Part shown: one piece after another, positions 2,422 to 30,375 of the stretch | Layout of the letters: each line of letters opens with the position of its first letter | Position numbering within the stretch: position 1 is the first letter of the stretch | Virus record (IMG/VR): IMGVR_UViG_3300029922_000196 | Coordinates: 1-35,116 of that record | Reading direction: 5' to 3' (one strand) | Origin: a virus | Length of the DNA stretch: 35,116 bases | The notes under the pieces: generated by a model | Seen by the model: the letters and a program-made list of their open reading frames with translations, nothing else | The model's database searches: none | What the model was told of the DNA's origin: nothing | Made by a program: the position numbers and the translations under genes

Positions 2422-2821
2422 CCCGACGTCTCGCAGCCTCGAGCATGCGCGCAAGCAAGGCTGGCTGCCGTGGGTGGTCGAGTTCAGCAATCCGTTCTCG
2501 CATAGGAAGACCGACCTGTTCGGGCTGTTCGACATCGTGATCGTGACGGGCGGCGAAACGATCGCGGTCCAGGCGTGCGCAGGAGCGAGCCACGCCGCCC
2601 GCCGCGCAAAGATGCTCGGCCAGCCGCAGAAGGGTGAGACGGAGGCGCAAGGCGAACTCCGTCGGGCACGTCTCGGTCTCGTGATCGCGTCCGGGTGGCG
2701 CACGGAGATCTGGAGCTGGAGCAAGCGCGGCGCACGCGGAGCACGGAAGCTCTGGACGCTGCGCGTGGAGGCGGTCACCGCTGAGGACGTGCGTCTTGCT
2801 GCAGCTCGGAGAGCTGCGTGA
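2414..2821 (+). CDS. PD-(D/E)XK/VRR-like nuclease candidate
   Basis: 135 residues from a GTG overlapping the previous stop by eight bases. The core KTDLFGLFDIVIVTGGETIAVQ resembles the RKDLFG-FDL...AVQ pattern of small phage proteins related to resolvase or VRR-type PD-(D/E)XK nucleases, where the Asp in the FDIV strand and the residue in the following beta strand form the active site. Here the second acidic position reads as Gln (AVQ), so catalysis is uncertain. It sits just before the helicase and may process replication or recombination intermediates. Confidence 0.5.
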   Translation: MGSPTSRSLEHARKQGWLPWVVEFSNPFSHRKTDLFGLFDIVIVTGGETIAVQACAGASHAARRAKMLGQPQKGETEAQGELRRARLGLVIASGWRTEIWSWSKRGARGARKLWTLRVEAVTAEDVRLAAARRAA

Positions 2822-4092
2822 ACGCGCTCGCGCAAGACCAGGTCGTGGCGGAGCTCCCGCCGCCACCGCCGCCGCTCTCGCCCATCACCGTGCGCTACCT
2901 CGGCGCACTCGCGGATGCAGAGCAGGATGAGCGGGACCCGCAGCTCTGGCGCGCCAGCTGCCCGGCCTGCGTCCTCGGCCTCGGGCAGCTCCTCGTGCGC
3001 GAAGTGGGCGGCCGGCCCATCTCGCACTGCAACCGAGGCTGCGACGAGGACGCCATCGAGTTCGCGCTGCGCCAGCCAGCGCGAGAGCCGGGCGAGGATG
3101 ACGGCGTCGAGGCGCCTGCATCGCGCCTCGGCCTGCGCTCCGCCGTCGAGCTGCTCGACAAGGAGATCCCGCCGATCGAGTGGCTGCTCGAGCCGTACAT
3201 CGAGCGCGGCTCCGTCGTCGCCGTCGTCGCGCCGCCGAACCTCGGCAAGACGCTGCTCGCGATGTGGATCATGACGCAGGTCATCCTCGCCGGCGGCCGC
3301 GTGGCCTTCATCGAGGAGGAAGGCGGCGAGCGCGGATTCCAGAAGCGCCTCTCCCGCGCGCTGCGCGCCGCTGGAGCCACGCGAGAGCAGGCCGCGAACG
3401 TTTCCTACTCGTTCAAGCCGCGCGTCTCTCTCGTGAGCCCTGGCGACGTCACCGCGATGTGCGACGAGCTCGTGGGCTTCGATCTCATCATCATCGACTC
3501 GCTCGCGCGCTGCATGCCGGGTGTCGAGGAGAACTCGAGCAAGGAGATCGGCCAGGTCGTCGCCTCGCTCGATCTCCTCCGCACCCAGACCGGCGCGGCC
3601 GTCCTCACCATCCACCACACCGCAAAGGCGAACTGGAAGCCTGGGCAGGTGCCTAGCCTGGGCGACTCGCGCGGCTCCTCTGCGCTCGAGGCTGGCGTCG
3701 ACACGGTGATCTCGCTCGCGCCCGTGCCCGTCCTCGACCAGCGCGAAGGCGTCGTCAACTTCGACCTCTGGATGACGAAGCAACGCGAGGAGGCCAAGCC
3801 CCAGGGCCACCGCTTCTCTATCGCCATGACCGGGCCCGAGGCCCTCGTCCAAGTCGATGTTCCCGGCCAGGCCGAGATGACCCGCTACGAGGCCGATCTG
3901 CGCGCCAAGATCTGGGCGGCGATCCCCGATTCGAAGGAAGCCGCGAAATCAAAGAACGGTGTTTACGAACAATCGGGAGGTAATAAGACGCACGCATTAC
4001 GAGTAATCGACGAGATGATTAGAGAAGGTCATATCGGTATATCGAACGGCCGTTTGTATCGGGCAGATCGGCAGGTCCAAAATGGGCTCTGA
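2818..4092 (+). CDS. RepA-like replicative helicase with N-terminal zinc motif
   Basis: 424 residues from a GTG in a GTGA overlap. Residues 48-75 hold C48, C51, C71 and C75 in a primase-like zinc ribbon. The AAA_25/RecA core follows: Walker A APPNLGKT (138-145), an acidic FIEEEGGE strand, Walker B LIIIDS with D227, and TIHHTAK (264-270) as sensor region, as in RSF1010 RepA-type hexameric helicases. The last 60 residues look like a winged helix. It should unwind phage DNA during replication and may load at the iteron region starting right after its stop. The last 150 bases are AT-rich and use different codons from the rest, suggesting a more recently acquired C-terminal module. Confidence 0.8.
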   Translation: MNALAQDQVVAELPPPPPPLSPITVRYLGALADAEQDERDPQLWRASCPACVLGLGQLLVREVGGRPISHCNRGCDEDAIEFALRQPAREPGEDDGVEAPASRLGLRSAVELLDKEIPPIEWLLEPYIERGSVVAVVAPPNLGKTLLAMWIMTQVILAGGRVAFIEEEGGERGFQKRLSRALRAAGATREQAANVSYSFKPRVSLVSPGDVTAMCDELVGFDLIIIDSLARCMPGVEENSSKEIGQVVASLDLLRTQTGAAVLTIHHTAKANWKPGQVPSLGDSRGSSALEAGVDTVISLAPVPVLDQREGVVNFDLWMTKQREEAKPQGHRFSIAMTGPEALVQVDVPGQAEMTRYEADLRAKIWAAIPDSKEAAKSKNGVYEQSGGNKTHALRVIDEMIREGHIGISNGRLYRADRQVQNGL

Positions 4093-4098
4093 TCGGTC

Positions 4099-4360
4099 GG
4101 TTCTGGCAGGTGGTTCCCGGTGGTTCCGCAGTGGTTCCGGAACCAGTTTGAAGACCCCGGAAAAGTGGTTCCCGGCGACCCCCTATACTGAAAGTATAGG
4201 GTCGCGGAACCACCGGGATCATGGAACCAGATCGGCGGCGAGGTGGTTCCGGGAACCGGGAACCAGTTTCGGACCGGAGGCCCAGCGCGCAGGCCGCGTG
4301 GATGCGTCGAACAAGCCAACTATCAATTTGATTGAATCAATCGCGATTCAATTAATGCGG
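4099..4360. other. Probable replication origin: inverted and direct TGGTTCC iterons
   Basis: TGGTTCC occurs five times forward (4111, 4121, 4132, 4166, 4244) and four times as GGAACCA (4139, 4206, 4223, 4259), with a GGAACCG variant at 4252, all within 155 bases. A perfect 9-base inverted repeat CCCTATACT-GAA-AGTATAGGG sits in the middle (4181-4201). An AT-rich stretch with ATTGAAT (4331-4337)/ATTCAAT (4346-4352) follows at 4319-4356 and could be the unwinding element. The position beside a RepA-type helicase, the repeat density and the lack of a convincing gene support an origin. Confidence 0.6.
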
Positions 4361-4367
4361 AGGTAAT

Positions 4368-4799
4368 ATGGGCGAAGTATTGGATATGGGCATTAAAGGT
4401 AATACACAGGACAGCGGCGCTGAGACTTTGGCAGCCTGCGCGGTGTGCAAGAGCTCGGAGCCGATCGCCGACGCCGCGGACGCGATGAAGTGGCAGGACG
4501 GTGAGGAGAAGCGCAACGCGCACGGCGCCTGCCTGCACCGCGCGCGAGCGGACGAGAGCGCGCAGCTCATCCAGCAGCTCAAGCAGCTCCTGGCCTACTC
4601 GCTCGCCGCGCAGGGCGGCACGCTGAACGTCAACGCGCCGCACGTGAAGCGCGCGCATGCGTCCGGCCTCATCGTCGACGTGTCGACCCGCCCCGGAGGC
4701 CTGCGGCTGCGCCTCGGCGACAAGCTTCCGCCGCCGCCTGCGCCCGAGGTCATCCCCGCGCCGCCGGCCGAGGCTGCTCCGGAACAGGCCGAGGTCTGA
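4368..4799 (+). CDS. Phage protein with N-terminal CxxC, unrecognised
   Basis: 143 residues with a strong Shine-Dalgarno (GGAGGT at 4359-4364). The N-terminal half has CAVC and a later C-x-H (ACLH), possibly one metal site; the middle is a Gln/Leu-rich helix (LIQQLKQLLAYSLAA) and the C-terminus is Pro/Ala-rich and probably disordered. It is the first gene after the origin-like region and thus may start a new transcript. Function unknown. Confidence 0.6.
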   Translation: MGEVLDMGIKGNTQDSGAETLAACAVCKSSEPIADAADAMKWQDGEEKRNAHGACLHRARADESAQLIQQLKQLLAYSLAAQGGTLNVNAPHVKRAHASGLIVDVSTRPGGLRLRLGDKLPPPPAPEVIPAPPAEAAPEQAEV

Positions 4800-4800
4800 C

Positions 4801-5481
4801 CTGCCCGGCTCCTGCGAGATCTCCGGCTGCGATCGGCCGCCACGAGGGCGCTACTGCCGCATGCACGCGGCACGCGCTGCTCGTGGCGCGCCGATGCACG
4901 CGCCCGTGCAGGAGCGATTGCCACCCGCCGAGCGCCTCGAGGCTGCAGCGCTCGCGTTCGCCGAGGCCGAGGACGACGACGAGTTCGCGCAGGCACGCCT
5001 GAACCTGCAGAAGGCCGCGAAGCGCTACCGCCGCCACGCAGACCTGTCGCTCGCGGCGAAAGCGCGCTGGCGCGCCTGCAAGGACCGCCAGCAGGCCGGC
5101 CGGATGCTCGCAAACCGCCGCTGGGAAAAACTGTGGCCCGAGGGAGAAATGCGTGCACGCACGCATGGTCCCGAAGACGCGTCGCCGACGCCCGCGGAAT
5201 CTGTGGCATCGCCGGCGCAGGATGCAGGGCATGAAGAACAAGCCTCCACGCACGGGCCAGTTCAAAGCGGGACAGAGCGGCAACCCGGGCGGGATGCCAA
5301 AGGGCGTGCGCGAGCTGCGGCTGCTGGCGCTGGAGCACAGCCCGGCAGCCCTCAAGCGCTTGGTCGAGCTGGTGCAGAGCCAGGACGAGCGGGTGGCAGT
5401 GCACGCGGCGGAAGCGGTGTTGGACCGAGCGGGCCTGCGCCCGTTCTCGCTGGAGCCGGACAAGATCGAGGTGACTGGTGA
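4801..5481 (+). CDS. Zinc-finger (HNH-associated type) protein, start uncertain
   Basis: The frame is open from before 4801 to a TGA at 5479-5481. CEISGCDRPPRGRYCRMH resembles the C-x4-C...C-x2-H knuckle that precedes many phage HNH endonucleases, but no HNH catalytic core follows; instead there are Ala/Arg-rich helices. No ATG precedes the knuckle, so a rare CTG at 4801 is proposed; an ATG at 4861 would remove the knuckle. Its last 250 bases overlap the DUF5681 gene in another frame, while its stop forms a GTGA overlap with the terminase start. It may end earlier in function than its frame suggests. Confidence 0.45.
   Translation: MPGSCEISGCDRPPRGRYCRMHAARAARGAPMHAPVQERLPPAERLEAAALAFAEAEDDDEFAQARLNLQKAAKRYRRHADLSLAAKARWRACKDRQQAGRMLANRRWEKLWPEGEMRARTHGPEDASPTPAESVASPAQDAGHEEQASTHGPVQSGTERQPGRDAKGRARAAAAGAGAQPGSPQALGRAGAEPGRAGGSARGGSGVGPSGPAPVLAGAGQDRGDW
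5196..5223 (+). promoter_or_regulatory. Late promoter-like element, copy A (packaging)
   Basis: GGAATCTGTGGC at 5196-5207, then 10 bases, then CAGGAT (5218-5223) as a -10-like hexamer. The ATG of the DUF5681 gene (5231) is exactly 23 bases after the 12-mer. This copy lies inside the preceding zinc-finger frame, unlike the other four. Confidence 0.6.
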
Positions 5482-29372: not shown

Positions 29373-29617
29373 GGCGCACCCGCCAGCAGGCACGCGATGC
29401 ACGTCGGCTCGGGCGTGCGCAGCAGGTAGACGTGGCTGCGGCGATGAAACACGGCGCAGATGATGCGGCGGAGGCGGGTCACGGCGTCGCTCCGAGCAGG
29501 CGCAGGGCCTCGAATAATGGGCCTCTCACGCACCTCGCAGAGAGGTGCCCGGTCCCTCCCGCCATGCATACGGCCAGTGACCCCCCAATACAGCGCGTCG
29601 AGAATGAAACGGATCAC
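29369..29617 (-). CDS. Small basic protein, unrecognised
   Basis: 82 residues from a GTG in a GTGA overlap with the repeat-protein gene; the upstream extension of this frame is not needed. Contains a basic helix (RSDAVTRLRRIICAVFHRRSH) and a terminal CIACLLAG. The coupling on both sides suggests translation as part of the leftward operon. Function unknown. Confidence 0.5.
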   Translation of the reverse strand: MIRFILDALYWGVTGRMHGGRDRAPLCEVRERPIIRGPAPARSDAVTRLRRIICAVFHRRSHVYLLRTPEPTCIACLLAGAP

Positions 29618-30375
29618 GGCTTCACCTCGACGAGCTTGCCGCTCTCGACGCGGTACTTCACGTTCGCCTTGATTCCGTCGATGCCGACCTCTCCCAGGCA
29701 GGCGCGGTAGCGGCCGGTGCTGCCGTCCCACCACTTGAGGAGCAGAGATCCGCCGTCGCCCGCCGTCGCCGTGCCGCCGTCGCCCGCCGTCGCCGTGCCG
29801 CGGTCGCCCGCCGTCGCCGTGCCGCCTTCGCCCGCCGTCGCCGTGCCGCCGTCGCCCGCCGTCGCCGTGCCGCGGGGGCCCGCCGTCGCGGTGCCGCGGT
29901 AGCCCGCCGTCGCCGTGCCGCCGTCGCCCGCCGTCGCCGTGCCGCGGTCGCCCGCCGTCGCCGTGCCGCCGGTGATCGCGCGGCCCTCAGCACCGTGAGC
30001 AGCGAGATATTCCGTCGCGCTCTTCTGGTTGCCGCAATGGACGACCACGCACGAGGGGAACTTCACCTTGCCATCGAGGTCGATGATCTTGTCCTTCTCC
30101 ACCTCGACCACCAGCCAGGCCGCGTCCACAGCCCAGCTCAACACATCCCCGTTGCCCTCGCCCCAGAGCAGGCCGTGCAGGCCGGCGCCGCACTCCTTCG
30201 TCGGCTTCCAGTCCGGCGCGCTGATCGGCCCGCTCTTCGGCCAGATGAATCCGCCGTGCGCGGACATATCCGCGGCGCACGTGCGGAGCACGAGCACCTT
30301 CCCGGGCGCAAGCGCTGTGGTGGTCTTCTTCTTCGGAGCGAGCTTCTTGGCGGTCTTCTTCGTCTTGGTGGTCAT
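29614..30375 (-). CDS. DUF7666-like protein with nine GTATAGxx octapeptide repeats
   Basis: 253 residues. A Lys-rich N-terminus (1-25) precedes a globular domain (VLRTCAADMSAHGGFIWP; GLHGLLWGEGNGDVLSWAVDAAWLVVEVE; VVHCGNQKSATEYLAAHG) typical of DUF7666 phage proteins. Residues 137-208 are nine perfect-length octads of GTATAG plus two variable residues, likely a beta-solenoid, then a C-terminal WWDGSTGRYRACLGEVGIDGIK. Related phage proteins carry the same repeat. Possible interaction platform; function unknown. It overlaps the macro-like gene as TAATG. Confidence 0.7.
   Translation of the reverse strand: MTTKTKKTAKKLAPKKKTTTALAPGKVLVLRTCAADMSAHGGFIWPKSGPISAPDWKPTKECGAGLHGLLWGEGNGDVLSWAVDAAWLVVEVEKDKIIDLDGKVKFPSCVVVHCGNQKSATEYLAAHGAEGRAITGGTATAGDRGTATAGDGGTATAGYRGTATAGPRGTATAGDGGTATAGEGGTATAGDRGTATAGDGGTATAGDGGSLLLKWWDGSTGRYRACLGEVGIDGIKANVKYRVESGKLVEVKP
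29752..29967 (-). repeat. 24-base tandem repeat encoding the octapeptides
   Basis: Nine 24-base units (216 bases) in frame within the repeat-protein gene. Units differ at the codons for the last two residues (DR, DG, YR, PR, EG). Such arrays expand and contract by slippage, so copy number may vary between isolates. Confidence 0.85.

Follow-up and report, generated by a model that had tools for sequence, protein, structure and literature searches.

What function is served by a dense cluster of short repeats placed directly behind a helicase gene, and which protein would recognize it? The locus lies in a viral contig, an IMG/VR record, that was analyzed over its whole length of 35,116 nucleotides (the window). 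Judging from its sequence and from analogy to characterized elements, we consider the cluster to be, with a probability of about 0.85, a phage replication origin whose iterons are recognized by a RepA-like helicase through its winged-helix tail. The locus contains the following features:

2818-4092, + strand: RepA-like (SF4, AAA_25) helicase, the proposed initiator, assigned from Pfam, PDB and fold matches
3868-4065, + strand: C-terminal winged-helix domain of the helicase, aa 351-416, in an AlphaFold model
4099-4270, both strands: iteron array with nine exact TGGTTCC copies and ten GGTTCC cores
4111, 4121, 4132, 4166 and 4244, + strand: starts of exact TGGTTCC copies
4139, 4206, 4223 and 4259, - strand: starts of exact TGGTTCC copies
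4166-4212: cruciform-capable element, with inverted iterons on either side of the palindrome
4181-4201: palindrome, CCCTATACT-gaa-AGTATAGGG, perfect 9-bp arms
4310-4369: AT-rich stretch, 32-34% GC in a contig of ~66% GC
4368-4799, + strand: gene of 143 aa outside the proposed origin, no family found

The sequence-only reading had described nine exact copies of TGGTTCC or its complement in 155 bases, a perfect palindrome with 9-base arms among them and an AT-rich stretch behind, and all three are borne out; the copies occupy 4111-4265, five on the + and four on the - strand. The heptamer occurs six more times across the remaining 35 kb, 2.1 copies are expected per whole window from shuffles, and no 7-mer exceeded five copies per 155 bp in 20 second-order Markov simulations of the window. 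A tenth GGTTCC core is present at 4252 on the - strand, and a degenerate copy, GGTTCT, is found at 4099. The unit had been taken to be 7 bases long, but comparison across loci lengthens it to 8 bp, (G/C)TGGTTCC, with C or G preferred as the next base. The first exact unit follows the helicase stop codon by 18 nt, and the array at 4099-4270 shows one hallmark of an iteron origin, namely many copies of a short unit beside the gene of the proposed initiator. A change in GC skew had been proposed as a check, but no clear switch is seen at the array within the window.

Iterons are present on both sides of the palindrome at 4181-4201, and because they are inverted relative to one another, the segment from 4166 to 4212 folds as a single stem of ~20 bp (DNA fold of -16.5 kcal/mol, z = -5.9). 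This iteron-palindrome-iteron plan is also found in relatives, and inverted iterons flank the stem in many unrelated loci; a strict test recovers a centred palindrome with inverted iterons on its two sides in 29 of 93 distinct arrays, making it frequent, not universal. The core CCCT[AT]nAGGG was detected in 15 of 46 arrays as compared to 3 of 259 control ends, and it also occurs in arrays whose iterons differ, while enterobacterial VapE arrays carry a (TA)n run in place of the palindrome. The AT-rich stretch, which holds an imperfect inverted repeat at 4328-4355, is a candidate for the unwinding region or for an operator ahead of the next gene.

The helicase matches Pfam AAA_25 (1.8e-29) and DnaB_C (1.1e-6) as well as RSF1010 RepA in the PDB (1g8y, 1.5e-7), and its top fold match is 1olo (1.1e-13), a RepA-like fold that places it in the RSF1010 RepA helicase family. 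Toward its N-terminus, Cys/His pairs suggest a CHC2-like zinc finger and show a weak alignment to that of L014 and L066. In the AlphaFold model, the C-terminal winged helix comprises helices 351-368, 379-386 and 390-402 followed by strands 406-409 and 413-416, with pLDDT values of about 80-90 over most of the domain, and we propose residues 390-402 as the recognition helix. The sequence suggests that the helicase itself is probably the origin-binding initiator, acting through this domain. The window also contains a large terminase gene at 5478 and, by eye, apparent portal and capsid genes, and so represents a phage and not a PICI; at the nucleotide level, the contig matched no annotated phage.

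By comparison with known initiators, replication would begin when the upstream-encoded helicase binds the GTGGTTCC iterons via its C-terminal winged helix, bringing helicase hexamers to either side of the central palindrome. As suggested by the SaPI/PICI and SCCmec initiators, the palindrome or the adjoining AT-rich stretch would then open, and the helicases would load on the single strands and depart in both directions. RSF1010 (IncQ) uses a helicase of the same family (1g8y, 1nlf, 1olo), but its long iterons are bound by a separate protein, RepC, whereas the helicase of the window carries its own predicted DNA-binding domain and the iterons are 8 bp long. In SaPIs and PICIs, the origin is located directly 3' of the gene for an initiator-helicase whose C-terminal domain binds DNA, and two iteron sets flank a central presumed melting site (PMC6092414; SaPI: PMC7581432); the PICI rep gene plus ori replicates in E. 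coli, and the layout was described as shared by PICIs and by no other known bacterial elements (PMC6092414). The array in the window resembles these origins, as it lies just 3' of the helicase gene with two iteron sets around a central element, but it differs in that its helicase is an SF4 RepA-like enzyme and its centre is a GC-rich palindrome, whereas theirs is plain AT-rich. The window is also no phage-inducible satellite; it would work like a PICI, but is itself a full phage. The SCCmec protein Cch2 similarly binds, through its C-terminal domain, iterons downstream of its own gene, where short direct repeats adjoin inverted repeats, although it is a helicase of another type with three AAGTG iterons (PMC7581432). 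Finally, the Prim-Pol/PrimQH proteins of mobile elements join a primase, an ATPase and a winged helix, and origin recognition was suggested for them without iterons being named (PMC5862659); the present arrays are what their winged-helix tails would be predicted to recognize.

How widely such arrays occur was examined with a scan of DNA for two-strand GTGGTTCC patterns that was blind to proteins. An initial pattern, three copies of GTGGTTCC, was discarded in favor of the two-strand form because many of its matches were one-strand tandem repeats that are apparently coding. The two-strand scan returned 53 viral and 30 cellular-genome stretches, and the same scan with the reversed motif returned none. 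Of the 53 viral stretches, 47 have the array at the 3' terminus of a gene for a replicative helicase (35 AAA_25-type, 11 VapE and 1 DnaB-like), either 3-45 nt past the stop codon or overlapping the gene end, as happens in about half of the loci. The cellular set contained six AAA_25-type and two VapE cases; the remaining 22 were not accounted for, some possibly because the gene is cut off by the stored flank. The GTGGTTCC-associated AAA_25-type helicases that were collected fall into 26 clusters when grouped at 50% identity, and their N-terminal parts vary (Prim-Pol, CHC2/Toprim, PriCT_1 and DnaB-N). Shared ancestry of the AAA_25 and VapE winged helices was considered and set aside, as hhalign gave it a probability of 0.6% with shallow profiles. 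A literature search with the letters GTGGTTCC yielded unrelated papers only, among the matches listed. In Streptomyces durocortorensis, a GTGGTTCC array (L161:1904-2036) lies within a 1254-aa open frame that has no AAA match by the profile used, and in Microbacterium mitrae (L142, L144) repeated GTGGTTCC units adjoin genes that seem unrelated to replication.

Scans that started from helicase proteins yielded 108 helicases with enough 3' sequence, 14 of which were already known by motif. An array, defined as four or more copies of one 8-mer, is present at the 3' end in 32 of the 94 newly seen helicases, as compared to 2 of 84 helicase 5' ends and 12 of 228 3' ends of other genes (Fisher, 2e-8 and 1e-10, respectively, for loci that are not independent); L131, counted among the 32, stays within the range of its own shuffles, and the other 62 helicases lack an array by this test. 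When all 108 are clustered, arrays are found in 16 of 34 clusters at 70% identity or 8 of 20 at 50%, a rate that should not be carried over to AAA_25 proteins in general, as the queries came from array-bearing helicases. The units vary by lineage and include TGCGTCGG, GTGCTAGT, TATCGGGG, GGAGTACTCC, TTACTGGAGCA and GGTGCTACC, among others. Annotated VapE phages follow this layout with other units:

Yersinia YeP4 (VapE): TAGGTTGTC
APSE-1 (VapE): GGTTGTTAC
Caulobacter Jess A (VapE): GTGGTTAC
Acidovorax ACF1 (VapE): GTTCCTAC
E. coli IAI1 prophage (VapE): GTGGTTCCA

A peptide pattern of the window protein alone retrieved no close relatives. The sole close relative found (L169/L207, 48% identity) has the same array with a palindrome between inverted iterons, and the absence of the repeats in relatives sharing the helicase, which was to have spoken against the origin, is thus not what is seen. 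No GGTTCC array was found at nine helicases of annotated phages with ~26-29% identity (NBR1, Minerva, Sour, Ligma, Shagrat, Ixel, Schimmels22, KYD2 and MW202711), and numerous members of the broader family have no array, while unrelated helicases bear one at the same place. Arrays at the 3' ends of relatives' helicase genes thus support the earlier proposal of a helicase-linked iteron origin, but not its description as an unusual type, as such arrays recur behind unrelated helicases and are widespread.

In some close pairs of loci the iteron has switched. The proteins of L239 and L240 share 97.6% identity. Of the 18 residues that differ, 15 fall within the last ~136 aa, and two adjacent changes (AT to QV) lie in the helix predicted to recognize DNA; the main iterons change from GTGTGTCC to GTGCTACC, while the array geometry and the palindrome CATCCCTTTAGGGGGATT stay the same. 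In the Prim-Pol family, altered helix residues accompany GTGGTACC (L265, L277), ACGGTTCC (L290) and GTGTCCC (L293), and the palindrome of L264, ACCGTACCGATAGGTACGG, is retained in L293 and L265. A counter-example is the pair L227 and L229, in which two helix residues differ and the iteron is the same. The DNA word and the domain predicted to read it thus appear, from these alignments, to have changed together in evolution, in a handful of pairs that were compared by eye rather than by a formal covariation test and for which shared ancestry is in part a confounder; in proteins other than that of the window, the recognition helix was likewise assigned by eye. As a second search word, GTGCTACC was unproductive: of six stretches, just two, both known contigs, lie at a helicase, and the others adjoin integrase-like genes or are unexplained. 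The GTGCTACC repeats at L330:2321-2810 and L332:10337-10387 adjoin integrase-like ORFs, indicating that short two-strand arrays alone are no mark of an origin.

These findings raise a broader reading, to which we give even odds, namely that a modular class of origins is widespread in phages. In such origins an 8-bp iteron at the 3' end of the helicase gene, free to be exchanged, would be recognized by the winged-helix tail of the encoded SF4, DnaB-like or VapE helicase. GTGGTTCC would have been adopted repeatedly by winged helices that are not detectably homologous (AAA_25-type and VapE), and the separate palindrome, often CCCTWWAGGG, would have a reader or function of its own, as it stays fixed when the iteron switches. 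The layout is already known; new here are its presence in full phages with SF4 helicases, the use of GTGGTTCC across unrelated initiators and the conserved palindrome.

Other functions for the repeats were weighed against an origin. They could serve mainly as an operator through which the helicase or another phage protein regulates the helicase or downstream genes, as iteron arrays often double as autoregulatory sites and an inverted repeat lies in the AT-rich stretch ahead of the gene at 4368. We consider this unlikely, as the array is located 3' of the helicase gene on both strands, overlaps the gene end in about half of the loci, and has no sigma-70-like promoter that we could find in 3900-4600; the two roles are in any case not mutually exclusive. 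A packaging site for the small terminase subunit is suggested by the terminase genes that lie nearby in the window, Caulobacter phage Jess A and Rhodoferax phage P26218, yet it is very improbable: Q, holin and lysozyme-like genes separate the small terminase from the array, which is at VapE, in the E. coli IAI1 prophage, and array placement tracks the helicase just as iteron changes track its residues.

Harder still to credit is a reading in which the repeats are incidental and the palindrome terminates transcription. A perfect stem-loop does lie 3' of the helicase gene, but neither a T-run nor a terminator-like site was found, and inverted iterons flank the stem in locus after unrelated locus. 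An origin read by the helicase remains the preferred reading. The PICI-type layout (PMC6092414) would then also hold for complete phages whose helicase belongs to another superfamily, and a simple rule follows for finding origins in uncultivated phages, namely to look for short inverted or direct repeats just 3' of the gene for the replicative helicase. Loci such as L239/L240, where the iteron switched in nature, provide material on DNA reading by winged-helix initiators, and the palindrome that stays the same would point to a second origin element with a testable role.

Elsewhere in the window, a dATP/dGTP diphosphohydrolase-like protein is encoded at 958-1428 (PF18909, 7.8e-33), and behind it lies a DNA methyltransferase-like gene at 1374-2021; no PurZ-type or adenylosuccinate-synthetase-like gene was found in the contig. 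A GC-rich tandem repeat (CCGTCGCCCGCCGTCGCCGTGCCG...) at 29747-29968 overlaps an ORF on the - strand (29614-30375) and contains up to ten CGACGGCG-like 8-mers.
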